Of a stretch of 64,000 nt of DNA, positions 2,530 to 64,000 are shown piece by piece. The number at the start of each line of letters is the position of its first letter. The first letter of the stretch is position 1. Both the position numbers and the translations under genes were made by a program. The stretch covers positions 1 to 64,000 of the forward strand of contig NW_013546700.1 in assembly GCF_000760515.2 (NCBI RefSeq), given 5' to 3'. The stretch is from Mitosporidium daphniae. Lineage: Eukaryota; Microsporidia. Below the pieces are notes generated by a model, which was given only the letters and a program-made list of their open reading frames with translations, had not been told where the DNA came from and searched no databases.

Positions 2530-3007
2530 ATGCTTGCTTCGCCAAAGAGCATTCATTCTCCGCTCAAGACCATTCTGTTTTCAAACCTTTTGGGTAGGCC
2601 ATACTCAAGCTTCAAGGTTCCTGAAATTGTGGAGAGGGATTTTGAGAAGAGCTGGAGACAGATGGATTTGGTTGGAAAGTACGATATCCAGCAACGCCAT
2701 GCAGAGCTCTCAAAAATGGACTGGAATACACTCACTCTGGCCACGAAGAAATCAAGTGGTGTATTTTTAATTAAATGTAGTGTACACTTCGGCTTATGAT
2801 TTACCCCCAAAAGAGCATCCGACCTTTAGTAGAGATGTCACCATCGGGGTTGCAGCGGTTATGTTGCTAGCCTATGGCCTGCATAGCTTCTTCAAGTGGG
2901 TTGGAGGGCCGCCTCCACATACGGCGTCCCCTGAATGGTACGAACATACAAAAGCCTTAATGCGCAAACAAAACGCCTCTCCAATTAGAAAGCACTTTGA
3001 CGATTAA
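2530..3007 (+). CDS. COX4: Cytochrome c oxidase subunit IV (COX4/Cox5)
   Basis: Exons 2530-2758 and 2781-3007, joined across a 22-nt intron (2759-2780), give a 151-aa protein. The N-terminus is basic and Ser/Leu-rich, as in a mitochondrial presequence. The body matches the COX4 fold: a MDWNTLTLATKK matrix segment near residue 65, one transmembrane helix around residues 95-112 (VTIGVAAVMLLAYGLHSFF), then PPPHTASPEW and an ASPI ending, equivalent to the PIPHT and APIQG positions of animal COX4. It is a nuclear-encoded structural subunit of complex IV in the inner membrane. The next gene starts only 31 bp after its stop. Confidence 0.9.
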
Positions 3008-3038
3008 TTTTCCAATAAAAGGCTACAATTTAAATTTA

Positions 3039-4710
3039 ATGGAAGAACCGTCTGTTAATATGAGCTGGGAGGGCGGCCCTTCCAGCGCTCTAGCTTCCGG
3101 CGCTCTAGATTCCAGCGCTCTAGCTTCCGGCGCTCTAGATTCCGGCGATCTAGATTCCGGAACTCTAGCTTCCACCTCATGCCCATATCTTGCTTCGGTC
3201 GATCGGGCACGGCTAGACTTTGATTTTGAACGGATATGCTCTGTTACGCTGTCCAATTTCAACATCTATGGTTGTCTGGTCTGTGGGAAGTACTTTCAGG
3301 GCCGGAATCGCTCATCTCCAGCATATTTTCATTCCCTTAACGATGATCATCATGTCTTTATAAACTTGCAGGATCGAAGGGTTAGATGTAAGTTGTCATT
3401 TTAGGTTTATTCTCTCCCCGAAAACTATGAGGTTCTGGATTCTTCTTTAGACGATATCAAATCTTTGATTTGCCCCATGTTTTCGGCAAAGGATGTCCAA
3501 ATGCTTGACACTGTTAGCAGGCAAAAACTCGATCTTCATTTCGAAAAAATGATCATTCCAGGATTTATAGGCCTGAATAATATCAAGGCAAACGACTATG
3601 TAAACGTTGTGGTGCAAGCAATTTCTCACATTCCAACCATAAGAGACTATTTCCTGCTTGGTTCAAACCGATTCAACCCCAAATTCACTCATCTTGTTAG
3701 CACGTTTGGAAACCTGACTGCCAAAATATGGAATTTCCACCCCTTCAAAAACCATGTATCTCCTCACGAGCTACTGCAAGTAAGATGCGGGCTTGTTGAT
3801 TTTTTAGACCATTTCTTTGGAATCTGCGAAAAAGTATTCTCTCTCCAAGAAAGAAGATCCCTCCAAGTTTTTGGTTTGGTTCCTCAACATTTTACGGGTG
3901 CAAATTTACACCGCTACCAAAGGTACCATTTGGCGCATTACTTTCCATAAAACAGAGGATTTAATTGCAAACGCTTTTCAAGGCAAAATTCGGATCATCA
4001 GCCGAAAGCCTTCCGATCCAGTGATGATCAAAAAATTTGGCGTAAAATCCAAGTATGAAGATCCCGCTCAAGATAGTAGAGAATTTGATCACCTTTTCAG
4101 TGACCGAAAATACATTTTTCACGCTTCAACTGGATATTCCTCCATCGCCATTATTTTTGGATGAGAAAAAATCCGGAATTATCCCTCAAGTGTCCATCAT
4201 CGACTTGCTTTCGAAATTTAATGGAACTACTGCTCAAGTACAAGCTCTTTTTTGTATCTTTCAACTAGGATTTGGGGAACATCGTAAAAGAGTACAAGAT
4301 TATTTCGCTTCCGGCATTTCTAATTTTGCATGTTAATCGATTCAAGAAAAATCAGTTTAAGCTCGAAAAATCGCGGACCATCGTCAATTTCCCATTGGAG
4401 GGGCTATCCGTTTCTTCAGGTATTTAAATCGGTGCCAATTTGTAGAAAATGGTGTCAAAAACTACAGGATCATTGCCAATATTGTCTTCGAAGGCCAGGA
4501 GGATCCAACGATTGGCCAATATCGTATTTATCTTCTCAACAAGGTAGGCAAAGTTGTGTGTGTATATCTTGGGCTAGTCAACAAACAAGTGGTATGAAAT
4601 CACGGATCTGGATGTAAAAGAAGTGCCGCCACAGAATGTATTTATAGCCGAGTCCTACATAATGGTAAGCGTTTGAAATTTATTTTCTCTAGTTTTGGGA
4701 GCAGCTGTAG
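3039..4710 (+). CDS. SAD1: USP39/Sad1-like U4/U6.U5 tri-snRNP assembly protein
   Basis: Eight exons (3039-3380, 3405-3779, 3808-4075, 4101-4237, 4269-4419, 4446-4543, 4578-4664, 4693-4710) separated by introns of 24, 28, 25, 31, 26, 34 and 28 nt. The protein has a UBP-type zinc finger (CLVCGKYFQGR, later His pair near residue 105) and a USP fold that begins GLNNIKANDY. In active proteases that site is GLxNLGNTCY; here the catalytic Cys is Asp, as in USP39/Sad1, so it is an inactive protease used in tri-snRNP assembly and splicing. The first 45 residues contain a six-copy pentapeptide repeat. The start was chosen because ATG 3039 follows an AATTTAAATTTA box and lies just after the COX4 stop. 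Confidence 0.93.
3081..3170 (+). repeat. In-frame 15-bp minisatellite in USP39/Sad1
   Basis: Six 15-bp units encode Ser-(Ser/Gly)-(Ala/Asp/Thr)-Leu-(Ala/Asp) repeats at the N-terminus of the USP39 homologue. Units alternate TCCAGCGCTCTAGCT and TCCGGCGCTCTAGAT. Such a repeat probably forms a disordered acidic/hydrophobic linker and would be expected to vary in copy number between strains. Confidence 0.85.
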
Positions 4711-5009: not shown

Positions 5010-6809
5010 ATGGTGCCGAAATATAAATCTTTGGTCCAAGGTGTGGCCGACATATATGCACGAAAAATAAAGCCTGTAGAGGAATATTTCCAGTATCCTA
5101 TTTTCTTTACACCTTCGCTGTCAGAGGCCGAGATATTGGCAAAGCCAATGGTCCTATTGCTTGGGCAATACTCGACAGGAAAGACCACCTTTATCAGGAG
5201 GATTCTGGGAGAGATTTATCCAGGGTCTCATATTGGGCCTGAGCCTACCACCGACAAGTTTGTTGCGGTCATGCATGGTCCGGACGCCCGCGTCATTCCT
5301 GGAAATGCAGCTGTCGCCCAAACGGAGAAACCCTTCCATACGCTTTCGCAGCATGGATCTTCGTTTTTATCAAAGTTCCAAATTTCGCAGTCTCATAATG
5401 CGCTTTTGGAGTCTGTGTCTTTTGTCGATACTCCTGGTGTCCTTTCAGGAGAAAAGCAACGACTCGGACGCTCCTATGATTTTGCCAAGGTTTTTCCAGA
5501 ACATCTTAACCCTTATAGGTCTGTGAGTGGTTTGCCGAAAAATCCGACGTTATCCTTTTGCTGTTTGATGCGCACAAACTGGACATTTCAGATGAATTCA
5601 AGAGAGTTATCTCTGCCCTGAAGGGCCATGACGACAAAATAAGAATCATCCTAAATAAGGCCGACATGATCAATAGCCAGCAATTGATGAGAGTGTACGC
5701 GTGCTTTGTTTATTTATTTTGCACTTAGGTATGGGGCCCTAATGTGGTCACTGGGAAAAGTTATCCATACGCCCGAAGTGATGCGTGTTTATATCGGGTC
5801 TTTTCAAGAGAATCCAGTGGCTCTCGATCCGTTCACAGAGTCCCTGTTTAAGAAGGAAACAGCGGATTTACTTGACGACCTTTATATGCTTCCAAGAAGC
5901 TCTTCCGTTAGGAAAATCAATGACCTTCTGAAAAGAACAAGGTAGCCACTGTGTGCTTTACTTTTTAGGCAATTGCGCGTACATGCACACCTGATTTCGG
6001 CGCTTAAGCGGGAAATGCCATCGTTATTTGGAAAGAGTGCAAAGCAGGCAGAACTGCTTGAGAATCTTCCGATGATTTTTACCAAAGTACAGAAACAGAC
6101 GCAATTTCCGCCCGGAGATTTCCCCGAAATCAACCATTACAGGTCGATTTTATCGGAGCAGGATTTCGACAAGTTTCCGAAAATGTATCAAAAGCTACTA
6201 GATCGACTTGAACAGGCGATTTCAGAGGATCTTCCCCAATTGATGAGAGACTTCCCTCCTGGCCCAAATATCCCCCCGCAGCAAATCTTCAATCCATACA
6301 CAAACTCAAACATCAATCCCAGCTTTTCGTTGCAGAAGGAGACGCCCAGTTTTTCATCACAAAATGAGGCCCCCAACTTTTCGTCGCAGAATGAGGTCTC
6401 CAGCTTTCCATTGCACAAGGAGATAGAACAAGAAAACGAGGAACTCGACAAACTTGGGGAGCATGAGAAGACTGAATTTTCTCCCAATGCTGGCGATGCC
6501 ACGCATGTAAAGGAGGAGCGAACGGATGGAATTTGGACCATTTCCAGGGCTAATGAGGAGAATTTTTCCAAAATGTTCGACAATTTGCGGCCGATTGACG
6601 GGAAAATATCGGGAAACCAGGCCAAGATCGTGTTTTCAGAGGCAAATCTGCCAAACTCTGACCTTGCTGAAATTTGGCAGCTTGCAGATCAAGATTCAGA
6701 TGGCGCCCTTACTCTTCACGAATACATTGTGATGATGAAGCTGGTGCAGGTAAAGATGCAAGGAGGCGCCATCCCCAAAACCCTGCCTTCGCAACTGAGA
6801 AAAAAATAA
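5010..6809 (+). CDS. EHD-family dynamin-like ATPase with C-terminal EH domain
   Basis: Exons 5010-5489, 5519-5694, 5729-5941 and 5969-6809 (introns 29, 34, 27 nt) encode 569 aa. The order is that of C-terminal EHDs: N-terminal helical part, P-loop GQYSTGKTTF near residue 52, switch motif DTPG near 145, the FDAHKLDISDEF and NKAD segments, the QLMRVYGALMWSLGK helix, a long helical region, a linker with four 9-residue repeats, then an EH domain with one clear EF-hand loop (DQDSDGALTLHEY). EHDs bind ATP, form rings on membranes and act in endocytic recycling. Each splice restores a segment that is highly conserved in animal EHD1-4. Confidence 0.95.
6321..6428 (+). repeat. Four-copy 27-bp repeat coding for the EHD linker
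   Basis: Four 27-bp units encode a nine-residue motif of the form Ser-Phe-Ser-x-Gln-(Lys/Asn)-Glu-x-Pro between the helical region and the EH domain of the EHD protein. EH domains bind Asn-Pro-Phe; the repeats contain Asn and Phe but not that motif, so they are more likely spacer than ligand. Confidence 0.75.
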
Positions 6810-6850: not shown

Positions 6851-7185
6851 TTAAGAAGTTAGATTACGAATAAGCGCTATTGTGTCGCCTTTGAGCATTA
6901 TTCGGCCTAGGATGAAAATCAAATGTCATTACCGAGTTCAGACCTGGTCTGTCTTTTTATTGAAATCTCTACTGCAGCATCAAGTACAATGTTCATAAAC
7001 TCATCAAAACCCTAAATGCCTGTAAAATAAAAGACACATACTATTATAATGCCCTCCATCCGGGCATCCTTGTTATCGTAAAGCCAAATCTGGACCGGCG
7101 ATTTTGACTGGAAGAGCTTAAATATAACACTGATGGGCTGGACCATCAGCTTTTGCATTCTTGTTGTCGTCGTCGAAGAAGACAT
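6851..7185 (-). CDS. SNRPE: Small nuclear ribonucleoprotein E (SmE)
   Basis: Three exons (complement of 7042-7185, 6933-7011, 6851-6906) with introns of 30 and 26 nt give 92 aa, the usual SmE length. Recognisable parts are MVQPISVIFKLFQSK in Sm1, the VQIWLYDNKDARMEG segment, GFDEFMNIVLDAAVEI of Sm motif 1, and GRIMLKGDTIALI of Sm motif 2. SmE belongs to the heptameric ring on spliceosomal snRNAs. The gene is not visible as one open frame. The ATG at 7185 was preferred because it aligns with family N-termini. It is divergent from the next gene by 74 bp. Confidence 0.95.
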
Positions 7186-9735: not shown

Positions 9736-11309
9736 TTATTCGATAATCGACACAAACGAGCTGTTTTCTATGATGCTCCTCCATGAATTGGGCATTTTGG
9801 GCCTGTTTGCATCAACAGCGGTCAGCAACAACGACGAGTAAAGATTTTTCAGAGTGTCAAACGAGGTTTGATCGCCGCCGTTGTTGATGTTTTCCAATAT
9901 TCTCAGTGTGGATGAAAAGTCTTTCAAGCTTAACAGCTCGTGGATGGTGAGCGTGAAGTGCTTCAAATAAAATTGCAAAGCGGGCTCTCGCTTGGCTGAA
10001 TGTGTCAAAAGCGTTTGCAAATTAAAATCGACAATCTCGGAAATGATGCTTTTGTAGGCCGGGTTGATCAGCAACAGGGACTCGTCCCGAAGCTCATAGA
10101 AGCACAGCAGACACGAGCAGGACTACAGAAAGGCGGCAAAAGGTCGCGCCTTACCTCCAAAAAGTCAAACGCCTCTGTTGGCAGCGACACGCTGACCGGA
10201 AGATGTCTCAGGGGCAGCATGTTTTGCTTAAAAAACGAAACAGCGTCAAAAAAGCAAGGCCGCGTGTTTAGAAACTCGATCCATTGCAAACAAAGCACTG
10301 GAAACGTTATTGCCGAATGGACGGTCTCCATGCTGGACACGCCATATTTGTCGCCAATGTGATTCAGCAGTCTGATAGCATCGGAGGAGCTGCCGTCGCA
10401 AATCAGTTTAAGCATTTCTAAAAGGCCCAACAAACACGCATGTACCTGTGCGCTCATCAATGATCGGCATGTGATTGCAATTTGCGCTGGAAGCGGCACG
10501 TAGGGTCTTGTAGTACCCATTGAACGCAAGATACTCGGAAACCAGATTTTCAACGCGATCCGTGGCTTGAGGGAACGAAGCTAGCTTGCCTCTTATGATC
10601 GTATTTGAGGTCTACAAAGTCAAAACAACGCAAGCCCAGTACGATCAGATATGAGTTTATGTCGAACTTGAAGGATGAAGGATTGAAGGTAATGAAGAGA
10701 TCGTAAATGGAGTTTTTGAAGCAGATTGTGGGAAAGATAACGGACTCGCCGTACGGAAAGTCTTGGTTCAAAATTGTGCCGTTGTACGTGAAAAAGACCC
10801 TGTTGAGAAGCCAGTCAAACCCGCACCCAAATACGTGTGGACTGCCGTTTTCAACGGAAAACAGCGGCCGCGAAGGCATTCTATGCACATAGATGGCTCC
10901 CTCCATCGGCGATAGCGCGATCGAGCTGCAATCAGGACAAAGCCTTACTTTTGATACGTGCCAAGCCTCCTGTTATACATGAATTGCGTGGTCGAAACGC
11001 CAAGGCATATGTCGTCGCTTGAATTAGACAAACCGTAGAGCGGTACCGTAGCGAGCTCAGGCTGACCTCAAAATAGGAGATTCGAAAGTTGCACTGAAAA
11101 GGGCCGTTGGTGCGCACCGTCTATGCTAAAAGCGCAATGCATACAATGAATTCGTCCCTTTTGCAAAGCTCAGAGGGCTGTATGGAGACCTTGAAATCTC
11201 TTGGCGAAATCTGCTTCAGATGGAGCGATTCTTGCACGATGCCATACAGAGACAGCGAATATGTTTTCGGATATCCGAGCACCATGTCTCGATGCGGGCT
11301 TGCCAGCAT
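9736..11309 (-). CDS. GID1: RanBPM/Gid1-like subunit of the GID/CTLH ubiquitin ligase
   Basis: Seven exons (complement of 11145-11309, 11047-11120, 10949-11017, 10643-10925, 10446-10611, 10155-10417, 9736-10122) with introns 24, 29, 23, 31, 28 and 32 nt give 468 aa. Domain order is SPRY (TVRTNGPF...FEVSL, then HVFGCGFDWLLNRVFFTYNG), LisH (RVENLVSEYLAFNGYYKTL), CTLH (EMLKLICDGSSSDAIRLLNH) and a CRA-like C-terminus. This is the RanBP9/RanBP10/Gid1 order. The protein scaffolds the GID/CTLH E3 complex. It lies directly downstream of the Gid7 homologue on the same strand, 113 bp away. The start could include a further upstream exon. Confidence 0.88.
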
Positions 11310-11422: not shown

Positions 11423-13360
11423 TCACGTTGCCTTCAATTCCCAAATGCTAGCGAAAATTTGAAAAAAGCACTTACTAAACTTTACAATCATCGCCCCCAG
11501 TGGCAGCTAGATTTAGGTGGTTGCTCCACGCCGTGCATGTTTGTGCCGATTGATGCGTCTTCACGCGGCCAAAAAGATGCCCGCTGTTTGCGTACCAAGA
11601 ATATAAATAGCCGTCTGGCGAGGAGCATTAAAAGAGCATGCGCGTACCTTCGCTTCCGGAAAGCACAAGGGTCTCGCCCAAGCCGCCAAAGCAAGACCGG
11701 ATTAAATATTTTTCTTGCACATATCCTTTGTATCGTTTGAGAATCCTCTCCGTTTTCAGCTCGAAAAGAAGAATTTCGGCAGTCTCCAAGCCGATCAAAA
11801 ACAACGATGAGTTTGACGAAATGGTCAGAGACGTGATCGATTCCATAAAGTCAATCGTCCTAGCGTTGATGAGCAAGTGGCGTCGAACCTAAGCAGCATT
11901 TTGCTCTGCAAGTCGAACAGTAGAATGCATTTCTCCTGCGACACGGCAAATAGGATTTTGGGGTTGACAGCACAATCCAGCGAAATCGAAGAAATCCGGA
12001 ATCCCGTCCAGCTGTGCTCGACCCGTGGAGTGGCCGAGTTGGAGATATCCTATCGCCTACTTAGCAAGCAAAGCCGTTACGTGGATCATCAATTGCCTAT
12101 CAATGCCGCCGGAAATAAATTTCGTAGAACTGAGCCAGCAGCAGCAAGTGATGAACGACTCGTGTTTTGAAATGTGGCAAATAAAATCCCCACACTACCA
12201 GCATTAAAGGGCGAACGTACGTTGATATCCCAAGCAGAGATGATTTTATCGTGAAGCGTTAAAAGCCGCGAATCAAAATAAAAGGCTCCAAAGTGCACAG
12301 CCGAGTCGTGATAAAATTCACAATGCTTCTTCCATGTCTACACGTAAATATCAGGCAATTGTGCACAGTGGTCGACCAAATCACGGCCCGTTGATCTCTT
12401 GATGTGGTAAGCAGCAGGGAGGAATCAAAGTTAAAGCAGGTATACCAGATCTCATCGACATGTTCATAAAGGGAGCACACTTTTTTTGCCGAAAAAGACT
12501 TTTTGTCGCAAAAATGGTCGAAAGCCAGCGATTGCTCCTTCAATGCGACAATCTGGGCATCAATTGAGGGCGATTAATGGTTCGGGCACGAGAGCGTCTG
12601 GAATACCTTGGCCTGTGCCAAAAGAGCCCCCAATCGGTTGGGAGACGGAAGAAATTCTTTCGGCAACAGCTTGTCCAATTCCACCAAAAGTTGCTCTTTT
12701 TTTTGCAGAAATCCCGCCCCAAATAGACGGTTTGAAAGCTGAGGCGTGTCACCAACCCAAAAGACAAGTGAAAACAGCCTCTTGTATTCTGAAATGTTTT
12801 CAACAACATAACAAAGAACCTCATCTCTCAAGTGCTTCAGTGCCTGGAGGTCTTCGCTGTGGAATAAAAGGTCATAATACTTTTGAACACTTAAAAATTG
12901 GTTGATTTTCTGGATTTCAGTCAACGCCAGTGGTCTAACCTTAATCGCGATGGCGTCCACATCAAGCGAAGACAGTAGCCTCGCGTTTTCTGCAGCCGCA
13001 TTTGAAAGCAAAAATTCTTTCAGCTCAGCGGAGGGCATTTTGGGAAGATTGATATTCGTTTCTCGCTTTAGTTGCGCTGATATTTGGCTAAAAACGTTAA
13101 TACTGCGCGAGAAATTGAAACGAATTGGGATGCATGAATACAATTTCAACTTACTGAAAGCCAGATTCATCTAAAAATTGAGCAATTAACTGAAAAATTT
13201 CCTTTTTTGAACACAATTCAGGGTTGGTAAGAAAAAAATTCCCAGAATTGCCAAGAGAACAAAGAGAAAGGGCCGATTGATCAGCATGGGGCTTGCCCTT
13301 TTTGCTCAAATGGATATTGCCATTATTGATTTGATTCTGCTCAGAACTTAAAGAAATCAT
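11423..13360 (-). CDS. GID7: WDR26/Gid7-like subunit of the GID/CTLH ubiquitin ligase
   Basis: Nine exons (complement of 13155-13360, 12607-13102, 12367-12552, 12221-12337, 12081-12194, 11889-12049, 11648-11859, 11476-11614, 11423-11447) encode 551 aa; introns are 52, 54, 29, 26, 31, 29, 33 and 28 nt. It has a LisH (KKEIFQLIAQFLDESGF), a CTLH ending LLPKEFLPSPNRLGALLAQ, and WD40 repeats including EIWYTCFNFD and the family segment YLIRSCFGG...LSGSEDG near the end; the last exon restores KVYIWEL. WDR26/Gid7 drives supramolecular assembly and substrate binding in the GID E3. The 54-nt intron (12553-12606) is in frame and reads like conserved coding sequence, see findings. Confidence 0.9.
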
Positions 13361-13586: not shown

Positions 13587-13974
13587 TCATGTGGGGGGAA
13601 ACTTGTCTAAAAGATCATGGATTTTTTTTTGAAAGTCCTCTCTAATGTTGTTTGGAATGGAGGCTAGCGGCAATTAGTGCAAATCGAGCCTACCTTCGGC
13701 GAACGGCATCAGTTCGGTGAATATTTCGTCAATTGTAATCCGCTTGATCGAGGGCTGCTGAATGGAAATGAGCTCTATGCACAATGATCAGCCAAAGCGA
13801 CACCGTTACCTTGGCATTTCTTCTCGATAGCCGATGGCCAGGTAGATTCGGCCAGTCTGTTTTTCAAGTAGCTAACGAGCCTAGAATAACATTTTGATTG
13901 TACTTTTCTCGCTGACCGGTCCTTTCTAAATACTCGGTTGCTGCTGATTCTGAGCCCATTGAATTTGTAGACAT
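13587..13974 (-). CDS. SUS1: ENY2/Sus1, SAGA deubiquitinase module and TREX-2 subunit
   Basis: Four small exons (complement of 13904-13974, 13810-13880, 13694-13774, 13587-13663) and introns of 23, 35 and 30 nt give 99 aa, the family length. Motifs match ENY2: an ERTGQREKL segment, LKNRLAESTWPSAIEKKCQ, then TIDEIFTELMPFAE and IPNNIREDFQKKIHDLL. The protein couples SAGA histone deubiquitination to mRNA export at the nuclear pore. It is invisible as a continuous frame. Yeast SUS1 is also known for unusual multiple introns. An AT box (TTAAAAATTAAAG) precedes the start. Confidence 0.9.
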
Positions 13975-15603: not shown

Positions 15604-16894
15604 TCACCTATTACGACCCTGTTTCGATGAACGGTATGTTCTGGCATCGTTGGGATAATAGTGGTCTGGCTGTGTTGCGCCAGATGCGGGGAATGTGGGA
15701 ACCGCAGGAGGAAACCTGCCAGGCTGGATGAAGTTTGGAAGGGTTTGATGGGAAATTTGCCGCGGATATTTGAATGGCTCAAAGTGGCTATGATATCCAT
15801 TGATGTGGTGCGGATCTGGCGAAAACAGCCTTAATGGATCTTCAGCTGGAGATGGGAGATTCAATTCTCTGTTCTGTGAAATGCAGGGGGGCCCTGATCG
15901 TGGTGAATACATGTTTGAAGATGCATGGCAAGCTGCTTCTGCAGGTGCACACCTGTACGGTGTATACGAAGTGGGCCGGGTTTTAGGAGAAAGTAGGCCC
16001 AACTTTTGAGCAGTCTTGTGGCACGGTTCAGTTGGGTAAATCGCGGAATGGTCAGTAGTTGTATGCTGCCTGTCAATGGGAGAAGCGGGGGCACACTGAT
16101 TTGGAGATGCGGGAAACTTGTTTTGATCAGACATGTCGCTTTGAGATTGCATCTGATGGATCGGAGGAGGGAATGGCAGTTGCACTGTAATTGGATTGGA
16201 CCTAAGGTGGAATTTTACACAACCGCGTACTCTCTTTCTTGCTGCGATTTCCTTATATGGTCTTCCCGCGTCCTCTCTTCCTTCAATTGCTTCAACTCGC
16301 TATTTGAAATTAGAAGCGCAGGTACTCTTTGATTGACTTTAAATTCAAGAGCTCTCTTTTCGCTTTGATCAGAATATCCTTTTCACGCTCGATCTTGTGT
16401 CGATAGTGATTAAGCAGGCTCCTCATGTTTTCCATTTGAAGCTAAATAATGTTAGCGGCACTGAAAACGATACTTTAACGGCCTCATGAGTAGCCAGTAG
16501 CAACTTTGAGGACGAATTAAAATACTGAAGAAGTTCATTGGGAAGCTACACTGTTAGAGGGCGCGAAAATCACCTCTCCCACCAGCAAATAATGAGCAAT
16601 CGGTTTGAGGCAAATTGAGCACTGGTGTTCACTCGAAGCGTCTTGTGGGCGAAAGCAATTGGTACAAAAAATATGGCCACACGTAAGAAGAGAAAACTTG
16701 AGCGATTCAACAGACCTGGGGTGCAGAAGCACCTGAAAATAGGAGTATCCGCTAAGCCCCGTCCCTTGCTTGACCTCCACATTGACATGGTCGCTTAATT
16801 CAACAAAGCACATGTTGCAATGGATCCACTCAAACTCTGAATTCAGGGACCCGTATGCATCAAAACACGGCTCATATGCGGATGTACTCATCAT
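15604..16894 (-). CDS. RNF212/Zip3-like meiotic RING protein
   Basis: Five exons (complement of 16574-16894, 16474-16545, 16326-16441, 16231-16299, 15604-16201) with introns 28, 32, 26 and 29 nt give 391 aa. The RING is of the RNF212/Zip3 kind: WIHCNMCF, then FSLLTCGHIFCTNCF, then CSICLKPIAHYLL. It is followed by a coiled coil (MENMRSLLNHYRHKIEREKD through LKQLKEERTRED) and a Pro/Ser/His-rich disordered tail. RNF212, Zip3 and HEI10 are SUMO or ubiquitin E3s that mark crossover sites in meiosis. RING position, coiled coil and tail agree with that family; other small RING proteins are the alternative. Confidence 0.75.
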
Positions 16895-17000: not shown

Positions 17001-18186
17001 ATGTTGATGAGGAAATTCTGGCCAAAGGCTTCGCCGCCCACTCCAATTGCACTGTCTAGACATACCAAAAAGGAGGCTCTTTGGTACGAAGATCCCGATT
17101 ATGTGATTGAAAAAAAAAACCGCCTTCATCCAACCATCCACAAGTATCTGAAGGTTGAAAGCAAAATCCCCAATGCAGTCAAACCCAACGCACTAAATAC
17201 CTCGGTGAGCTTAATTGATACCAAGCCCGTTCGGGATGTCATCAATTCGGATGCGCTTTCGGTTTACAAAACACTGCCTTTGCAGCAAAGGCCGTACATT
17301 GCCGGATTTTCAAAGCGAGTTGGTCTTGTTGGGTTCAAGTCCGGAATGATGTCCTATTTTGACCACGTAACTGGAAAAAAACATGCTGTCACCGTAATCA
17401 GATTTGAGCATGTGCAGTCTCTTCGCATAACCTCTGTTGGCGCCAGGCGAGATAGGGGGCTTTTTTCCATCGACGTTGGGGCTGGAAGTCAAGATCCCGG
17501 CAATATGTCAGCGTGCAGAAGAAGCTATTATGCTAGGTTTGGCGTTCCATTTAAGAGAGTCCACATGTGTTTTTCCATCACAAAGGACGCAACAATACCT
17601 CCAGGTATGTTGCCGTTTGTATTTTTAGGGACCAATTTATTTGCCGCCCATTTCGTTCCGGGCCAACTTGTGGATGTAAGATCAAAGTCGATCGGGAAGG
17701 GATTTCAAGGGCCCATGAAGAGGTGGGGATTTAAAGGGCTGCCCGCATCACATGGCGTCTCCCTTGCGCACAGATCGCATGGAGCAACGGGAATGAGACA
17801 GGTAGGGTTGGGTTGGTGGGTGTCTTATTCTAGGATCCCGGCAGAGTGTTGCCAGGCAAAAAAATGGCCGGAAGAATGGGCGGCAAATTCAAATCTGTCT
17901 TGCGACTGCCTGTAAGCTTTATTTTGACCATTTGTAGGTTTTAAAGGTCGATACAAAATATAATTGTATATACGTGCGCGGGTCAATTCCCGGCCATGAC
18001 GATTGCATTGTTAGGGTCAAGGATTCGCTCAAAAACCCAACATTTGCAAAGAGCCCGCCTCCATTCCCCACATTTATCGCGCCCCAAAACCAGAACGTTC
18101 CACAAGTGATGGTTGCGGAGCCCGCTTTTTACCACGACAAAAAGACCCCCATCAAACCCCATGAGCTGATCAAGCTCCTCAAATGA
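17001..18186 (+). CDS. MRPL3: Mitochondrial ribosomal protein uL3m
   Basis: Exons 17001-17801, 17834-17911 and 17938-18186 (introns 32 and 26 nt) encode 375 aa. The basic N-terminus fits mitochondrial import. Family signatures are VGLVGFKSGMMSYFD near residue 108, DVRSKSIGKGFQGPMKRWGFKG with SHGVSLAHRSHGATG near 230-255, and DPGRVLPGKKMAGRMGG, the loop near the peptidyl transferase centre. Both introns fall in the C-terminal third. Followed immediately by another mitoribosomal gene in the same direction. It implies a translated mitochondrial genome. Confidence 0.93.
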
Positions 18187-18582: not shown

Positions 18583-19972
18583 TTATTCAACTTTTTTAAT
18601 CGATTCAAGCGTATCCCACACATCCGCATCATCGTCAGCATCATTATCATCATGGGCTTCGCTATCGCTGTCATGGACAGCATTATTTGCATTTCCATCA
18701 GTCATCGATATGTTTTTGGCGAGAAATTCGTTGGAAATAGCGGTTAATTGCTGGGTGAAATAGACCTATTTGATGATAATGAAAGGCCACATTACCGATA
18801 GTAGCAGCCTTTTGTCGTTGACTTGATAAATACGTAAAAATCGATCTAGCCCCACAGAGACGAGGATCGGCAACTTTTCGAGACAAAAAATATCCTGTAC
18901 GGCACCCACATGGTCCCTGAGCTTGCCAAATGGTTTTCGTGTTCTCTCATCAAATAAATTGATGCCACCGCGGGTATCGGTGAAAATTAACATCCTAGTA
19001 ATAAGGAGGGAGCTTGAAACCTCATCTTCGAGGAATAATAAAGAGCCGTAATTGGATGCTCTGAAACTATTTTGGAGAAAACCGCTTTGGTCGAATTGGC
19101 CTTATAATCATAGAATCTCAATTCCTTTTGTGCAGTGCTTATGGCGATGGCAGATTGAGATTGGGAAGACGGACCGTCCATGAATGTTATTCCGGTGATG
19201 GAAAACTTGGGCTTCATATTTAATTCATTGTGCTCCTCCTACACATTAAAAAAAGAAGCACCTTTGCAGCCTTATAAAAATTGACCAGAGAACTGCATTG
19301 TTCGTCTATCCGAAACACGGAAAGTTGACACTCATCCCCTCCAATTGCAAAGATGGAATCATTAATGTAGGATTCGTTCCAAAACACAGATAGTATCGAG
19401 GCTGCCTTTGGAACAGTTTGCTTTAAAATGAGACATCTTTCTTCCGGCTCTTCTTTGTCATACAAATTGGGAAGAAACGCCTGAGCATATAGCAGAATCC
19501 CATCAGAAGAAAGAACCGCAAAGTTTATATGCCTATCTGAAAGAAAATCACAAAGTACTTGGATTTTTGCAAATAACAAGAGAATGCAATTATTTTGCTG
19601 CAAGGTAAAAGGCATTCCGAGAGAAAGGCTATCTTAAATGCCTTCCGCTGATTTACAGCAGTTGCGCGAGAAAAATACAAACATCCATCGGAACATAAAA
19701 ATATGGAAAAATATCCCTAGGTCATATGATGAGGGAAATTAAATTACCAATGAGGCATCGCCTTGTAGAGTTGAAATTTTTTTAATCGAAACTGCTGCGT
19801 TCGAAGCGGACTCCAAATATTGCGAAGGGGTCAAGATTGTATTCGTGTTGGGGACCAGCGAAGTATCTTGGCCATTCAATATACCACCACTATCTAATAT
19901 GCTTTGCATATCAAAAGAAACAGACTTTAACTGGCCACAGTTATCGCCCACGAGAAAGGCTGTACGAGACAT
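18583..19972 (-). CDS. NSA1: WDR74/Nsa1-like 60S ribosome biogenesis factor
   Basis: Six exons (complement of 19748-19972, 19559-19716, 19262-19532, 19021-19238, 18796-18994, 18583-18765), introns 31, 26, 23, 26 and 30 nt, 417 aa. It is a WD40 beta-propeller: GDNCGQLKSV at the start, ITGITFMD and SEHPITALYY in the middle, TDTRGGINLFDERTRKPFG and the LVSVGLDRFLRIYQV blade, then an acidic tail ending DVWDTLESIKKVE. That ending and the GLDRxLRIY blade are typical of WDR74/Nsa1, which acts with the AAA ATPase Rix7/NVL in maturing pre-60S particles in the nucleolus. Confidence 0.85.
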
Positions 19973-48677: not shown

Positions 48678-49818
48678 ATGTTCAAACTCGATTATTTTCT
48701 GATTAAACAATACACAAACTACCCCAGATGTGGTTCATCTCTGCTAGCGTTGAGAAGATTCTTCAGCATGTTGGCATATGTGTTCACAGGCTCCTCGAAA
48801 ATCCACAGAATCATATTTCTTGTAAATAATAACAAAACTGGTATAGTTTAAGTCTAATTCAACGTAGATCTTCCGGTGGGAAGCCTGTTGTTTGCGCTTG
48901 AATTTTCGCTTGAGCATTCGGTATCATTCAAGTGGCCCAAGAAAACATTCGATTCGTCTGCGCCAGCGGCGCTTTCAAATAAAAATGAATTGGGTGCATC
49001 CGCGTCATCTTTAGATGATCCAAAATCTCCTTCGGCTTCTCTAGATGGCCTTACGCCAAATGTATCGTCTCTGAAGACCGAGATTCTTCGTCAAAAAGAA
49101 CTAAACTCTCAACAAAAATATAGACCAGAATGTATGGATGTTGGTCACCTGAAGGCTGAAATATCGCCTCAAGCTGGGCTTGGTTTTATTAAAGTCACTG
49201 ATTGGTAGATTTCTTGGGGTCTCTCATTACAACAATGATCGATGTGATGGAGAGGAAATTTGAAATCCTTTTGTCAACAGAACCTGAAAAGCCGGCAACA
49301 GACTCCCTCTGGAATTCTTATTTTCCAAATGAAAAAGAAAAATCCTGGACACATCTTGGCTTCCAGAGAAATGAATCGCCATTAACAGATTTTAGGGGGA
49401 CGAAATCATTGGGACTTCATCAGTTAATGTAGGACATCTCCTCTCAAGGATCACAAATAGGTTCTTTGGGTCTGCCTATGCTTCTGATGCGAAAAGGCTG
49501 CTACTTGAGGCAAATGGGAACAATCCGCAAACCGTCAAGTACTGAGAAAATTTTATTTTTAGCTATCCGTTTGCCCTCGTTGGTATTACCATATCGCAAC
49601 TCATTGTCCATATCAAGAAGGAGAGGTTGTGCAGAGAATGGCTCTATTCAACCCTGCTTAGAAATCAAGAACTTTCGCCCTTTGATGCTCTGTATGCTGA
49701 ATGTTTTAAGAAATTTCATAAATTCTGGCTTCCCGGCGAAGGGAGAAAAAAAGATTTGATGCAATTTAGCACCCTGTTTTCGCAGTTTACAAGTTTGTTT
49801 CTATTGAAATTTAATTGA
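48678..49818 (+). CDS. ELMO-domain protein (ELMOD-type Arf-family GAP)
   Basis: Exons 48678-48840, 48868-49204, 49255-49428, 49461-49538 and 49563-49818 (introns 27, 50, 32 and 24 nt) encode 335 aa. The N-terminus RRFFSMLAYVFTGSSKIHRI resembles the ELMOD helix with its TGxxExxRI. The ELMO domain has WTHLGFQRNESPLTDFRGTK, SLGLHQLM, YPFALVGITISQLI and KKFHKFWLPGEGRKKDLMQFS. The GFQ...P.TDFRG.G.LGL core is diagnostic; ELMOD proteins are GAPs for Arl2/Arf GTPases through the Arg in that motif, conserved here. The Ser-rich linker at residues 70-140 is unusual. Confidence 0.85.
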
Positions 49819-50619: not shown

Positions 50620-51037
50620 TCAATTTTCAATAGTCTGCGTCGAATTTTTTTGGTCGGCCTTTAATGGGATTTCCCCCAATGATTGGTTAAGCTGCTCCTT
50701 CGATGGACACTTTGGCAAAGCTAAACCCACCATGGCGGCAGTTTTGACAAGATGCTCATGATCCATGGTATCCTTTGGAATGTTTACAACACATTCCTCA
50801 TACAGCGTCTAAAAATTAATAGACAGTTTCAATACCAAAAACTTGATTCTGCTTTCTAAATATGGAAGAAAGTGGGGAATCGATTTTGGTGAACGGTCTA
50901 AGGGGTGAAAGTTGGATTTAAGACATACCAAGAAAAGTCAGAAAATTATTACAAGTTTGCACACGATGCTGGTCTTTCACCTAAGATGACACAGCGGCAC
51001 TTACATGGCCATAGAGCAGCTGTGCAACTCGTTTCAT
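50620..51037 (-). CDS. FMC1: FMC1-like F1-ATPase assembly factor
   Basis: Four short exons (complement of 51005-51037, 50929-50980, 50836-50897, 50620-50808), introns 24, 31 and 27 nt, 111 aa. The second half reads FLPYLESRIKFLTLYEECVV, then DHEHLVKTAAMVGLALP. FMC1/C7orf55 proteins have LLRSIRKHVALHQEF and ERSVEESAGLVGLKLP at the same place. FMC1 stabilises Atp12 during F1-ATPase assembly at high temperature. The exons are far below normal ORF thresholds; total length is divisible by three and the family ending is kept. The first exon (11 residues) is the least certain. Confidence 0.72.
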
Positions 51038-51154: not shown

Positions 51155-53462
<2,308 letters not shown>

Positions 53463-54457: not shown

Positions 54458-54939
54458 CTAATGTTTTGGTGGCTTGTACCCGTCAACGGCGATGTTGCGA
54501 GTGGCTGCCGGGATTTTTGCAACCATACCTTCAATGGATGGGTCAAGCTTAACCTGACAGCCCAGTCTCGAGGTTTCAGTAAGCCCAAATGCCAAGTCCA
54601 ACATGTCGTTCTCCTCGTCAGAGGCTTCAGGGAGCACATCATAAGTCCGTTTGTCCAAAATCACATGGCATGTGGAGCAAGCAAGAGAGCCATCGCAAGC
54701 ACCTAGTATCAAAATGGGCGGAAAGTCTGCGTACCTTCAAGTTCGACGTCGTTTTCATGGGCAAGGGAGAGCAGAGTTTGGCCTGCGTTTCCCTGAACGG
54801 CAACTTCCCTTGCTGGTGCACCAGTAACTCGATCCAGAGGAATTATAAAAGTGGCACGGATCCTACACTGTTACGAGAGCGAAACCACACACGGTGACGA
54901 AAATCTTCTAAGCGCAAGCAGACCAACAACAGCGTTCAT
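54458..54939 (-). CDS. YAH1: Mitochondrial adrenodoxin-type [2Fe-2S] ferredoxin (Yah1)
   Basis: Exons complement of 54893-54939, 54735-54862 and 54458-54702 (introns 30 and 32 nt), 139 aa. A presequence MNAVVGLLALRRFSSP precedes ATFIIPLDRV, then AHENDVELEGACDGSLACST with cluster ligands C-x5-C-x2-C, and LGCQVKLDP with the fourth Cys. The C-terminal PPKH replaces the usual MPVDIxDL end. Yah1 donates electrons for Fe-S assembly on Isu and for haem A and ubiquinone synthesis. The first intron is 30 nt (3n) but has a stop in frame. Confidence 0.93.
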
Positions 54940-58274: not shown

Positions 58275-61200
58275 TCATTGGATTCCAAAAAGCCCTTTGA
58301 GGCGGCGTATCAGCTGCCAGTCTTCTGCAGTCATCTCTTCGCGGAAACTCGTTTTGAGAATATCGATGGACGTCCGCGAAATGGCTGATAGCAGCTCGTC
58401 GTTCTCGGAAAAGTGGCGCCCAACCATTCGCGGAATCTCGTATGAAGCCTGCTCGATCTTGATGGCAACTGAAGAGCCTCCCCGCCGGATTTTGTCCACA
58501 GGACGATGATTGAGCTCGATCGAAGTAACGCGGCCAATCGATAGAGGCTTTCCTTCTCCTTGATGTATGACCAGGGGTGTTCCAATGCGCAAAACACCTT
58601 CTGTTACTTGAACACCTAAAATGATCGGGGAGCGTTTGTTGAAGACACATCCAGGGACTATCTTGAGAACACAAGGAAAAACAGCTTGTGGCGCCAGGTC
58701 TCGTTTACGCTGCTCGACCAACACCGAGCGGTGTGCCTTGAAGGTATCAAGTAAGTGGTAGATAATGTCTGCCGAAAATATCTTAATTCCAAGGTCTTCC
58801 GCAAGCTCCTGTGCCTATAAAAGTTAGGAATAGCGTGATATGGAGAAAATTTCTAATTAAAGAGAAGCAGAAAGGAGCAATACAAAAGCATTCAAATATC
58901 AAGCACAGGCCTCACCTCGCGGTCTACGCGAACGTCAAACGCCAACACGGCAGCATAATCTCGAGCCTCCGGGTTGCCAGCCGTGGTCCATCGCTCCAAA
59001 TTGGCAGCCGTGGTTAGAATGTCACGCTTGTAAATTGTGCCAATCGACGCCGTAGCGACAGGGACGTCATTTGCCGCAAGAAAAGTCAATAACGCTTCAA
59101 GGGATCCTAGCGTGGAGGCCTGCACACTGACACCGGCAGCACCACTACGGCAGCGATCGGCAGCACTAGAAAGAGCTGCCTTAATTCCCAAAACCTCTCT
59201 CATCTCCTCATCAACCAGCCGCATTGCAACAGTAGCGGCGTCGTCGTCACCTTCGTCAGCATCACTTTTAGTTACTCGAACGAGACGGGAACCGGCAACT
59301 GCTGCCTCTAAATTCAGTCCAACTATCCGGACTCCCATGCATGCTCGAACGGTTGTATGATGCAGGTAACGAAGCGTCTTTACCCTACTTTCTTTCATGG
59401 GCTCTGGGGTCAATAGTGACCGCACCTGGCTTAGAATGGGTCCAGAAAGGCCAGCAACAGCAAACTGGTCACCCTCTGCTAACGTTCCTTGTGTCAGAAT
59501 GACATCGATGACGTGCCCAAGGCCCTCCACGCTCTTCACTTCCAATACAAAAGCTGAAAATCGATTTTCATCAAAAACAAGCGCAGCCCCCAGGCGCTCC
59601 TGCGTTAGCATTACAACTGTCCGCAGCAAGTCAGGAATCCCCTCGCCTGTAAGGGCAGAGATAGGGATCAATGAAATCGTGGAGCGTGGATTCGTATTTT
59701 CTTGATGCAGCTCTGCATTGAGACCTGCTTGTGAGGCAAAAGCAAGCTTTGTGCGATCAAGTCTGTCACGAAACTCAGCAACGGTGGATGGTTTCTGAGC
59801 AGCCTCAATCTCACTCCAGCTACGGGCACCGGGCACTGGAGACCAGCCATAGAGCCTATCAATCTTGTTCAGTGCTACTACAAACGGTGTCCGCCTACGA
59901 CGCAATAACTCAATGGATTCTAATGTTTGCGGTTCCAGCCCGTGCATGATATCAACTACTAGCACAGCGAGATGGCACAAAGAGGATCCACGGTCACGAA
60001 GATTGGCAAATGAGGCATGGCCCGGGGTATCAATCACAACGAGTCCAGGGATTTTCACGTGTAGCCCTTCATTCTCGCTGCCGGTTATTAACATTTTAGC
60101 GATGATGGCCTCGCGGGGAAAGAACGTGGCCCCGATTTGTTGAGTAATACCTCCAGCCTCATTCTCCTGGACGCTTGTCTCGCGAAGCTTATCCAACAGC
60201 TTTGTTTTTCCGGTGTCGACGTGGCCAAGAACACAAATAATTGGAGACATAAGGTCCTGCTCTACTGGAGCTACAGATATAAGTTGCTCATTGTTTCCAG
60301 AATTGTCGATTGGCATTGAGGTCTTGACAGTGAGTGAAGGTACGTGCGACTTGTGATCAGCTGGCGCTCTTCTCATAGTTGCTGGGATGTTCATCGATGC
60401 ATTAGCTGAAGTTGAAATCTGTGGCTGATTGGCGACCCATGCATCTTTGCAATTAAGAGCGGTAAGCCCAGTAATAAGAGAATCATTGGAATCATCGTCC
60501 TTGTCTTCAAGGGCATCTTCCCAAGAGTCGAGAATTTCCTCATTTGAAGAGCCCGAATCTGTGGATATGGTGCCTTTATCTGAAACACAATCGGTCGTGG
60601 ATAACTTTGATGTGTGAGCAGAAGAAATTTGAGAACAAGCATAGCTCGATTTAGAGGACGCCTTTTTCTTGGTGTAAACCAACTTTTTCCTTTCAGGAGC
60701 AGGAGCAGGATCTTGCGAGGGATTATCGAGATTATGGTGGTTAATGGATTGTTGCTGTAAAATCGTAATCTTCTCTTTGTCTATTTTAAGACGTTCGCGC
60801 TCGGCCTTGGTACCCTCTTTTTTTAGGGCTTGTTGGCGAGCCTAGAAAAGAAAAAACTTGCGTACCTTTCGTCGATCCCGCTTACGCTGGCGCTCAGCTT
60901 CTTCAGCCAACCTCTTCTCCTCAGCCTCTCGCTGAGCATCCATTTCTTTTTGCCGCTCTTCCTCCTCAAGCTTCTTTAACTCTTCCTCTTGGGCTTTCAT
61001 TGCCTCCTGCATTCGCTTAATAGCAAGGATGGCCGTATTTTGGGGCTTTTTCTTGCTTGAGGAAGGCTCTAATTTTTTTTCCTCCTCGTCTTTCTTTGAA
61101 GACGACTTTTTCGGGGCCATTGTATTGGTTTCTTGAATAATTTCGAGTTCCGAAGATCCTTTCTTTGTATCGATGCTCTTTTTAGAACTATTTGCCTTCT

Positions 61201-61450
61201 TTGTTGCGCTGGATTCCTTCTTTGTCGCGCTGGATTCTTTCGTCTCGCTCCTCTTTTTGGAATCACCTGACAGCTTCGTCTGATTTGTACTGGTATTCTG
61301 ATCCTCTGCTAGAATTTTGCGTTTTGATATTCCATCTATCTTTTCTAGGGGTTCTTCCTTTTGAGGTTTTTTATTTTTCTTCCCTTTTGAAGAGGATGAG
61401 CAAACTTGGGCCTCATATTCATTCCAGTACTGCTCCAAATCGGGGTCCAT
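58275..61450 (-). CDS. FUN12: Translation initiation factor eIF5B (Fun12)
   Basis: Exons complement of 60866-61450, 58916-60841 and 58275-58814 (introns 24 and 101 nt) give 1016 aa. The N-terminal third is Lys/Glu/Ser-rich, as in eIF5B. The GTPase motifs are VLGHVDTGKTKLLDKLR, GGITQQIGATFFP, VVIDTPGHASFANLRDRGSS and VALNKIDRLYGW. The C-terminal domains have REAQELAEDLGIKIFSADII and GRHFSENDELLSAISRTSID. eIF5B joins ribosomal subunits. The 101-nt intron is the longest in the window; it contains an internal TTTAATTAG that could act as an alternative acceptor but would break the frame. Confidence 0.96.
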
Positions 61451-61559
61451 TCGTAAGTAAAAATTTAATTTAAATGCAAATAAATTAAGTGGGCTTTATG
61501 GGAATAATTCGGATTTTGGCAGCCTTCAAATTTGCCATTCATATTTTGAGAATTTAAAG

Positions 61560-64000
61560 TCATTGTGCAGCATCGTGATCAGATGTGCCCTTGATATGCA
61601 TATTTTCGGAGCTTCTTTGCTGGCCAAGATTCCGATTCACATTTTCGTCTGGAGGTTCTCGCCTAGCAAATTTGTTGTAGACAGCAAATAAATGGGCTAC
61701 TTTGTTAACCGTCGTTATGATTTTATGTTCATCAAAAGAGCTAGCCTCACCTTGCCATACAAATTGAGATATGATCTGTGCATTACATACACGTTGAATT
61801 GCTTTGTCAGATATCAAAGTCGGCTTGATAGCCTCATTAATGGGGGTCAAGATTTTTTCAAGCGAGTCAGAATCAAACTGATCAGGTGTGAAAGAAAGAA
61901 AAAGTAGTAAAGCCGATATGATGCTTTCATGGGGCGATAAAACACTCGCTCTAGCTGCCAATTGCTGAATTACTACATTGAGTGACTTGGAATAAGATGT
62001 TGAGAAAACAACAAGGGCATAGCAGAGAGTTGAAATTATTGATTTTGCGCTCTGTTGGATCACAATTAACTTTGCAAATTTCTTTGCCCAATCATCTGCA
62101 ATATTAGTCTTCTGTAGTAATATGTCAACAAGGGACGGTAAAATCCAGGGATACCTTTCACCTGTTTTGTTTTGGAGAATAGCAAGCAACTTTAAATATA
62201 GCCATGATGCGCAAATGGTAAGATCGTTATTTTTCTGGCAAGTAACAATGCTGGATATAAGTTGAAGATACTGATCAACACGTTGTCGTCGCTGTAATGA
62301 CCGATTGCTATCTAAAACATCTTCCCTTAATAGATAGGTGATAGCATAAAAGAGAAATTTCATGTGCTTAATTAAGATCTACCGAGGAAAGAGAACCGAA
62401 TATTACCTTTATCGAGGATTGCTCTAGTTGGAGTGACGGAAAGATTGGAGATGTCAGAACCTTTTTCAGGTAATAAAATGTTCCATCTAAAAGCTCCTCT
62501 ATTGCTGCATTGTCGAGAATCGTAATTCGGCTTCTCAGGAGCGCCGAAAGGATCTCTATTGATATGATGTGATCTGTCGATCGTATTAGTGTCGTATCGA
62601 CAAATACAGGATCTTTTTCCTCTGCAGCGAAACGAGTAAGAGACCAACTAATGGCACTGCCTAAGGTATCCTGGAAAAATTTAAAGGAGGGGGAAATGTT
62701 TTTAGCGTTCATATATGACAACAAAACTCTTATACATTTTGAAGAGAGGTCCGGAGATCGAGAAATCTCGGTGCCAAGAAAGCCTGATATATTCTCCACA
62801 ACCCATCGATGGATCTCTTNATCAGCGGCAGCAGAAAACGACGAAAAATCACAATAATAGTAGAAGGATGCGAAAATAAAGTGGAAGCGTGAGACATCAT
62901 CAAGATCTTTGTGGTTATCTATTGAACACAGTTTGTGTTTTCGGCTTGCAGCTAGAGAATGCCTTTGCTTTATAAAGGCAAAGCCAAGAGGCGGATATCG
63001 TTTAAGTAGCCAACGACACTGAGTGTCATCCAATGACTGCAAAAATTGGCAAACTTTTCCTTCAGAGCAATAAAAAGAGTGTCCATTTTGCAAAGAAAGA
63101 ATATTTTTTAAAAGCTTCTTGCTAGCTGGTGTACTCAAACAGCCGGGAAAAGTTGCCGAGATTTCGGACAATTGCGCGAAAATATCCGCCCCAAAATCAA
63201 CATTTAAGTAATTGTCAAACAAGGCTTCCATGAGCGATGAAAGAGACTTTTCATCATTTCGGATAAAATCTGGTGCCAAACCAATCGAATATTTAACAAA
63301 TGTGTCCTTTTCTGGACACTTTTTCGATAAAGAAGCATGGAAAAGTAAATTTTCACCATCATGGAGGGTATCATGATCAGACTTTAGCTTTATAAAGGCA
63401 CACTTTATGGATTGAATCCATTGATGAAAAAGAACTTTCATCCTCAAGTATCTAACAAAAGACGAACAGGCTCGAGGTGAATTGGAAAGATCGGACGAGG
63501 ATGAAATTAAATGCTTGGCAACAAGAGTCAGAATTGTTATGTCATTGCCCTTGCTTGACTTTAAGAGCGAAGGAAACAAAGAGCTTTCAATGAAAGAAAT
63601 GTATGAAAGACGAAGCGGCAGTGGTGAAGAAATGCTGCATAGCAAAAAAAGCTCATCTATAATTTTACTGGTTCTTTCAGCGATATTAGAATCAGCATCC
63701 ATTGACATAAGTAGTTGATGGTTAACAATTGCACACAAAAATAGGATTGCCGAGTTTCTGACGCTTTCTTTAACGTCGCGCATACGCTCAATTGCTGCAT
63801 CAACAACTTCAACAAGTTCGTCTGCATTTTGGCCCTTCAAATGGGATGAAAAAAAAGCAAGTCTTTCCAAAGTGAACGACCTAACCCTTTCTTCTGGATC
63901 AAGCATCTTTTCAATAAGTCCCTGTGTTGTTGCGGCGGAAAGCGCACAAAGAGACGGCATAGATCGAGGCAGATGTGGATTTTGTGCTTCACGAGAAAGC
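61560..64000 (-). CDS. Pds5-like HEAT-repeat cohesin regulator (partial)
   Basis: Exons complement of 62407-64000 (continuing past the right edge) and 61560-62366, joined by a 40-nt intron; about 800 residues are visible and the frame is open at the edge. HEAT repeats are clear: IEKMLDPEERVRSFTLERLA and VVDAAIERMRDVKESVRNSA, closely like Pds5 repeats (LLDPSERVRAAACKA, RCKDKKSSVRLEALK). The rest is helical and diverged. Pds5 regulates cohesin loading and release. Condensin subunits and other HEAT proteins are alternatives. An unresolved base at 62820 falls within one codon without breaking the frame. Confidence 0.6.

Follow-up and report, generated by a model that had tools for sequence, protein, structure and literature searches.

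The 64,000-nt stretch of DNA analysed here (positions 1 to 64,000 of contig NW_013546700.1; C33:1-64000), which at its full length is referred to as the window, was found to carry genes interrupted by numerous very short GT-AG segments. We interpret these segments, with a probability of roughly 0.94, as U2-type spliceosomal introns that have shrunk across the examined genome to a floor of ~22-23 nt (median 28 nt) while intron number was kept high, and that are probably intron-defined and handled by conventional machinery. Analysis of the window revealed 110 introns, spread over 33 of its 43 gene models, and 102 of these introns were 22-37 nt. A preliminary description of the same DNA had placed ~107 introns in 29 genes, with ~99 of them at 22-37 nt, and the independent gene finder used here came close to these counts. 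The description had also regarded such introns as a general rule, and this held across all 264 kb examined (the window plus 200 kb from three other contigs, ~6 percent of a 4.66 Mb, 147-contig draft genome). This sequence encoded 428 introns in 159 gene models, 401 of which were 22-37 nt; nearly all of this large number (410 of 428) were no longer than 40 nt. By extrapolation from the 264 kb, there would be ~7,000 introns genome-wide.

The gene finder, a semi-Markov model that scored coding sequence by dicodons, started from eight introns read by eye and was retrained over seven rounds; GT-AG were the sole intron ends permitted in its final form. A finder with free intron ends that used codon usage alone was powerless, returning seven introns with random ends, and a GT-AG finder without position weights was not better than decoys. 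As seeding with eight introns followed by retraining was the sole approach that worked, decoy and flat-prior controls were run. For the chance control, 12 decoy pairs of end dinucleotides received identical seeding and training. The decoys scored 5980-6668 and gained 53.7-58.5 thousand coding codons, whereas training with GT-AG gave a score of 7571 and 66.9 thousand coding codons, which exceeded 12 of 12 decoys on both measures. Each decoy pair also produced 212-572 spurious 'introns'. The lengths of these were scattered over 17-80 nt in the four decoys with printed lengths, whereas the GT-AG introns formed a narrow peak. The flat-prior run modelled six donor and three acceptor positions, let intron length vary over 12-120 nt under a flat prior, and started from the coding model, introns and splice-site weights of the first finder model. 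It placed 274 of 390 introns at 22-36 nt and spread the other 116 at ~6 per 5-nt bin; no second length class rose above noise up to 120 nt in this run.

The bulk of the introns lay within 23-34 nt, and those of 21-40 nt (n = 409) had a mean of 28.3 nt and a median of 28 nt (standard deviation 3.65 nt). Three introns measured 22 nt, after which the counts jumped steeply to 21 for a length of 23 nt before they faded by 38 nt. Intron density across the 264 kb was 2.04 per kb of coding sequence. An in-frame stop was present in 82 of 123 introns whose length was a multiple of three (3n) compared to 126 of 286 other introns; this excess may be an artefact of the finder, because stop-bearing 3n introns are easier to detect. 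Introns of 60-80 nt in the models were doubtful generally, as were the five of 110 window introns that exceeded 60 nt.

The spliced proteins of eight genes (Drp1, PSMA7, USP39, EHD2, BOP1, Ufd1, SPC3 and uL3m) were aligned to sequences of solved structures, which placed 30 of their 32 predicted joins inside the alignments (counts by eye). Twenty-four of the 30 joins were gap-free within 3 residues, and none was lengthened by 7-12 residues or put out of frame as an unspliced intron would do. The dynamin/Drp1 gene (51170..53462, forward strand; introns 51271-51299, 51391-51417, 51596-51618, 51705-51733, 51996-52021, 52822-52849 and 53184-53211) gave a 556-bit match to DRP1, in which five of seven joins were gap-free and two had adjoining 2-residue indels. 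All three joins of the proteasome alpha-4/PSMA7 gene (30901..31775, forward strand; introns 30997-31025, 31153-31189 and 31315-31337) were gap-free against human PSMA7 and other relatives, as were the three of the EHD family gene (5010..6809, forward strand; introns 5490-5518, 5695-5728 and 5942-5968) against EHD2. BOP1/Erb1, read without its last codons (29002..30843, reverse strand; introns 29260-29288, 29602-29635 and 30280-30304), likewise had three of three joins gap-free against BOP1. The finder model fused this gene with a downstream transporter gene, and the 'intron' 28927-29001, one of the five doubtful ones longer than 60 nt, only bridges two unrelated genes. UFD1 (39635..40892, reverse strand; introns 39755-39787, 40020-40049, 40190-40218 and 40431-40453) had three gap-free joins of three aligned to yeast Ufd1, with the fourth outside the alignment. 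In the mitochondrial uL3 gene (17007..18186, forward strand; introns 17605-17628, 17802-17833 and 17912-17937) two of three joins were gap-free against uL3m and one had a 1-residue indel. Signal peptidase SPC22/SPC3 (20326..20995, forward strand; introns 20472-20502 and 20839-20871) had its one PDB-aligned join gap-free, and its SPC22 match (1-194 of 201 amino acids) spanned both joins.

The USP39/Sad1 gene (3060..4710, forward strand) contained seven introns of 24-34 nt (3381-3404, 3780-3807, 4076-4100, 4238-4268, 4420-4445, 4544-4577 and 4665-4692). Its protein gave a 383-bit match to human USP39, with four of seven joins gap-free and three with adjoining indels of 1-4 residues. A stop-free GT-AG segment of 33 nt in this gene (3923-3955, forward strand) was left unspliced in the model and coincided with two insertions of 4 and 5 residues away from the predicted joins; judged from the sequence, it is probably a further intron missed by the finder, and stop-free introns such as this one easily escape notice when only the reading frame is followed. 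At 3080-3170, short tandem repeats around ggcgctctag correspond to the low-complexity start of the USP39 protein.

A Pfam scan matched 18 of 19 spliced proteins, and the matches spanned joins in COX4, EnY2, LSM14, SPC22, PIG-A, Fer2, UFD1, MED7 and others. The preliminary description had singled out two introns of 22 nt as the shortest. The first, in COX4 (2530..3007, forward strand; intron 2759-2780), was borne out by a single Pfam COX4 match (amino acids 54-146 of the spliced protein) that spans the join. The second (36525-36546) was not reproduced in CTK3 (36052..36908, forward strand; finder introns 36211-36246, 36420-36446, 36509-36546 and 36617-36643), where the finder placed a 38-nt intron at 36509-36546 and swapping that boundary alone breaks the frame. 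The CTK3 domain match covered amino acids 4-82 only and missed the disputed boundary.

The sequences at the intron ends and interiors were consistent with splicing signals. In the set of 409, the three exon bases ahead of the intron (positions -3 to -1), which were in no model, read A42 A50 G52 percent. The intron 5' end read GT A75 N G44 percent, so that the exonic AAG and the GTA(N)G context of the 5' splice site fit U1 ACTTACCT. Within the flat-prior introns, the interiors of which were unmodelled, the most enriched 4-mers were CTAA, TAAC and TGAT, then ACGG and TTAA. YTRAY was present in 104 of 281 of these introns compared to 58.2 expected (standard deviation 7.2; maximum 81 in 200 simulations) and CTAAC in 12 of 281 compared to 2.6 expected, while the control YTYAY was found in 98 of 281 compared to 87.3 expected (standard deviation 8.1). 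The 409-intron set contained YTRAY in 138 cases against 80.5 expected (standard deviation 7.6). Through this excess the branch site fits U2 GUAGUA, with a signal that is weak per intron. The A of YTRAY lay 6-11 nt before the last G at 71 of the 115 sites listed by distance, where 25 were expected. The branch-like motif of the preliminary description therefore stood as regards its position very near the 3' end, but it was weaker than worded there, given its presence in 104 of 281 introns against 58 expected. A free motif search inside introns recovered a weak pattern only (C or T, A, run of T), and the k-mer test was clearer. The introns were also T-rich (41 percent, compared to 28 percent in coding sequence). 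No avoidance of AG is claimed just upstream of the 3' end in the flat-prior introns: AG was found 37 times against 51.3 expected, and since TG drops likewise (186 against 215.4) the deficit mostly reflects the pyrimidine tract.

The genome was found to encode the major small nuclear RNAs (U1, U2, U4, U5 and U6, one match each) and Prp8, the latter in one frame of 2419 amino acids. The canonical recognition sequences were readable, namely ACTTACCT in U1, GTAGTA in U2, the loop GCCTTTTAC in U5 and ACAGAGA in U6, and no changes in these core sequences were seen in the four RNAs. Slu7, Prp18, U1-70K and the exon-junction protein Y14 were also encoded, and the introns in the gene models of Slu7, Y14, U1-70K and RBM39 were mostly 23-34 nt. 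Three Prp18 loci (contigs C56, C80 and C118) were 99.97-100 percent identical over 3,339 bases, which points either to a triplication in the recent past or to contig redundancy in the assembly.

What can be read directly from the sequence are the introns with their sizes and motifs and the machinery genes; from these we infer that the segments are removed from mRNA by splicing. Recognition would probably occur by intron definition, with the intron as the unit: U1 would pair with AAG|GTA(N)G, U2 with the branch site in its loose YTRAY form, and the 3' splice site would be a YAG situated ~6-11 nt past the branch A. Compression would have brought 5' site, branch and 3' site almost into contact. 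The machinery appears conventional both in its RNAs and in those core proteins that were detected (Prp8, Prp18, Slu7, U1-70K and Y14). Intron size may itself act as part of the splicing signal, and deletion pressure in a compact genome may have driven the shrinkage.

Several observations weigh against this interpretation. The scan covers just 264 kb of 4.66 Mb (four of 147 contigs), and the finder started from introns picked by eye and then learned from its own output. Two decoys, CA-TG (572) and GC-AG (467), exceeded the 428 introns of GT-AG, and because of this intron number alone is no proof. The finder and flat-prior runs are not independent, because the latter begins from parameters of the first model, and ~18 of the 274 introns in its peak may be noise as estimated from the background bins. 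YTRAY is absent from most introns and weak per intron, and in the 409-intron set the control YTYAY was itself mildly raised (147 against 123.8 expected; standard deviation 8.9). Indels of 1-4 residues flanked six of the 30 aligned joins. A search for a spliced copy among transcriptome-derived proteins gave a best identity of 64 percent and nothing close. SF1 had no match in a genome search made without a positive control, and none of the 32 RRM matches to the U2AF65 profile passed its cut-off, with no clear U2AF65 identified in what was an incomplete search.

This last result bears on an elaboration of the preferred reading in which the introns are recognised without U2AF65, via UHM or poly-U proteins (PUF60, RBM39, SPF45), the tract between branch and AG being too short for U2AF. 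It is in keeping with this that 17 of the 32 U2AF65-profile matches were placed in read or located genes and none of them is U2AF65. U1-70K and Y14 were among them, identified by structure matches; others are presumably CSTF2-, eIF3G-, nucleolin- and SR-like proteins, and two more are further RRM proteins. A frame of 681 amino acids with four of the matches was located only and is PABP-like by layout. A gene on contig C78 first taken for U2AF65 proved to be RBM39, as it scored over the curated RBM39 cut-off. A protein on contig C92 had PUF60 as its best family match but reached 153 bits against a cut-off of 444, and its model had no UHM. Both belong to the wider U2AF65 family and are encoded, with no clear U2AF65 among the matches read. 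In human cells, SPF45 is described as replacing U2AF on short introns with truncated tracts (PMC8363638). Against recognition without U2AF65, three of the other 15 matches yielded no gene model on inspection and the remaining 12 fell outside the analysis, SPF45 was not among the proteins sought, an exon-by-exon search can miss a gene split by introns, and the introns are still T-rich. We regard this elaboration as doubtful, and loss of U2AF65 is a lead, not a result. Its fullest form, in which a conventional spliceosome works at its lower size limit in an intron-rich fungal relative, on ~7,000 introns of 23-34 nt with the branch A just 6-11 nt ahead of the 3' end and with PUF60/RBM39-type proteins in place of U2AF65 selecting the 3' splice sites, is unlikely. 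If it were true, splicing in an opisthokont lineage would rely on length itself as one of its signals.

Removal of the segments at the DNA level, similar to that of the internal eliminated sequences of ciliates, or their skipping in translation, would likewise leave conserved genes interrupted by short segments. The GT-AG ends, the exon context matching U1 and the branch motifs matching U2 fit splicing instead, and small nuclear RNAs and spliceosomal proteins are encoded, so that we consider either process very improbable. That the frame breaks are sequencing or assembly errors turned into introns by a motif-hungry finder is hardly credible: the genome is a draft of 147 contigs and decoy motifs do yield spurious 'introns' by the hundred, but errors would not give rise to lengths narrowly concentrated at 22-36 nt, to GT-AG ends, branch motifs and an exonic AAG, nor to whole 22-37 nt inserts that sit exactly between conserved residues, as in PSMA7 and EHD.

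The remaining genes of the window with short introns were distributed along its length. Three copies of a 20-base repeat containing catttcgtgt were found in intergenic sequence (2271-2330). The gene at 6851..7185 (reverse strand), named SmE after the human protein, contained introns at 6907-6932 (26 nt) and 7012-7041 (30 nt), and its LSM domain spans both joins. Towards its end the latter intron, read on the reverse strand, contains one AG 22 nt and another 30 nt from its start; splicing at the second restores the frame. The short COX4 and SmE genes were missed by the finder, and SmE was spliced by script. Finder models on the reverse strand included an SPRY domain gene (9736..11285; introns 10123-10154, 10418-10445, 10612-10642, 10926-10948, 11018-11046 and 11121-11144), in which the SPRY match at amino acids 63-167 spans two joins, and a gene with WD40 matches (11423..13038; introns 11448-11475, 11615-11647, 11860-11888, 12050-12080, 12195-12220 and 12338-12366) with a further intron of 69 nt (12538-12606) that is doubtful. 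EnY2/Sus1 (13587..13974, reverse strand; introns 13664-13693, 13775-13809 and 13881-13903) encoded 99 amino acids, and the EnY2 match at 10-93 spans all three joins. The RING finger gene predicted by the finder (16127..16894, reverse strand; introns 16185-16218, 16300-16325, 16442-16473 and 16546-16573) had a RING match at amino acids 63-95 that spans no join, and a finder-predicted WD repeat gene (18583..19684, reverse strand; introns 18766-18795, 18995-19020, 19239-19261, 19533-19558 and 19629-19656) had beta-propeller matches below the cut-offs. A frame of 1041 amino acids (21149-24274, reverse strand) had one non-self match (52 percent) among 7995 scored candidates from a very large protein collection.

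On the forward strand, a gene that from its sequence is presumably a ubiquitin-eS31 fusion (31839..32333) had one intron, inside the third codon (31846-31869), placed by the finder only. LSM14/Scd6 (32668..33903, forward strand) contained introns at 32773-32801 and 32827-32848 (22 nt), both of which are spanned by the LSM14 domain at amino acids 6-83. Beta-CASP metallo-hydrolase genes, in two finder models (34028..35803, reverse strand; introns 34094-34115 (22 nt), 34140-34170, 34227-34254, 34443-34473, 34629-34658, 34775-34803, 35450-35474, 35587-35609 and 35683-35714), had Beta-Casp, RMMBL and Lactamase_B matches. The PIGA and Glycos_transf matches of the finder-predicted PIG-A glycosyltransferase (37285..38627, reverse strand; introns 37325-37351, 37442-37472, 37556-37582, 37798-37831, 38148-38170, 38387-38417 and 38509-38541) span several joins, and the MED7 match at amino acids 27-129 spans three joins of MED7 (41653..42154, reverse strand; introns 41698-41729, 41808-41831, 41951-41975 and 42055-42082). 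The gene at 46443..48093 (reverse strand; intron 47951-47978, finder only) presumably encodes a KH-repeat protein. An ELMO domain gene predicted by the finder (48768..49818, forward strand; introns 48841-48867, 49183-49208, 49429-49460 and 49539-49562) had its ELMO match at amino acids 162-299, spanning two joins, and a gene without a family match (50620..51037, reverse strand; introns 50809-50835, 50898-50928 and 50981-51004) was placed by the finder only. Ferredoxin (54458..54939, reverse strand; introns 54703-54734 and 54863-54892) had a Fer2 match at amino acids 35-111 that spans the second join of the protein, at amino acid 58. The finder joined two long open reading frames through an intron at 60842-60865 into a translation factor gene (58892..61450, reverse strand), which is presumably eIF5B-like. 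An unnamed gene (61560..63960, reverse strand; finder only) contained introns at 62379-62406 and 62622-62648 and one of 69 nt (62784-62852) that contains an N and is doubtful.

The organism is an uncultured microbe and likely a fungal relative. Its cysteine desulfurase showed 83 percent identity to an ENA sequence and 63 percent to those of Rozella, Paramicrosporidium and also Hydra, and 20 contigs in the database searched, up to 1.02 Mb long, carried an identical cysteine desulfurase. In a single-gene tree this protein grouped only with two metagenomic rows and left its relation to fungi, animals and Rozella undecided. In the proteasome tree, also of a single gene, the row of this genome was long-branched and stood beside other rows (support 88/66). 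A TLC-type nucleotide transporter is a trait common to Rozella and Microsporidia; no match to it was found in a search made without a positive control.

The results indicate that intron shrinkage and intron loss are separate routes of genome compaction. In this 4.66 Mb genome, which is probably near the fungal root, density is similar to that of Rozella and introns are ~28 nt, while canonical Microsporidia lost most introns. Such a genome provides a natural test of how closely a U2-type spliceosome with the usual RNAs can set the 5' site, branch and 3' site. In practice, annotation pipelines that set a higher minimum intron length would fragment the majority of genes in lineages of this sort.

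Comparison with known systems limits how far this genome can be called unique. The preliminary description had confined introns this small to ciliates and nucleomorphs, which is contradicted by Encephalitozoon cuniculi, a fungal relative with 37 introns of 22-76 nt (PMC3629993), and by the introns of 16-17 nt in the rhizarian mikrocytids (PMC10245619). No intron lengths were found for Rozella, Mitosporidium, Paramicrosporidium, metchnikovellids or aphelids in the open-access literature searched, nor did that literature yield a report of similarly short introns in an intron-dense opisthokont genome, most subscription papers being outside that search. The introns of Paramecium and Nyctotherus are ~25 nt, and 3n introns of Paramecium are rich in in-frame stops (PMC5014332). 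The genome described here resembles them in having only ultra-short introns and in the stop enrichment of 3n introns, but those organisms are ciliates whereas this genome is probably holomycotan. The introns of mikrocytids, of chlorarachniophyte nucleomorphs (18-21 nt) and of heterotrich ciliates (15-16 nt) are likewise numerous, tiny and narrow in size range (PMC10245619). These are shorter, at 15-21 nt, and almost uniform, within 1-4 nt, whereas those found here average 28.3 nt with a standard deviation of 3.65 nt and a range of about 22-38 nt. Mikrocytids have reduced spliceosomes, and in Stentor Slu7 and Prp18 were not found (PMC9505925); in contrast, both are present here, so that tiny introns occur without their loss. 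Canonical Microsporidia such as E. cuniculi share GT-AG ends, very short introns and kinship with fungi, but their pattern of few introns with strict motifs differs from the 2.04 introns per kb, the loose motifs and the presence of most of the core factors sought (not SF1 or U2AF65) in this genome. Its density is similar to the 2.53 introns per kb of Rozella allomycis (PMC8476143), whereas its introns of ~28 nt are unlike the mean of 63 bp in Cryptococcus neoformans, termed relatively short (PMC8476143), and that of 60.7 bp in the nucleariid P. atlantis (PMC9492541). The case for uniqueness is thereby weakened: this is a known phenomenon, ultra-short introns, in a new lineage, and what is unusual is the combination of short introns, high density and loose motifs.

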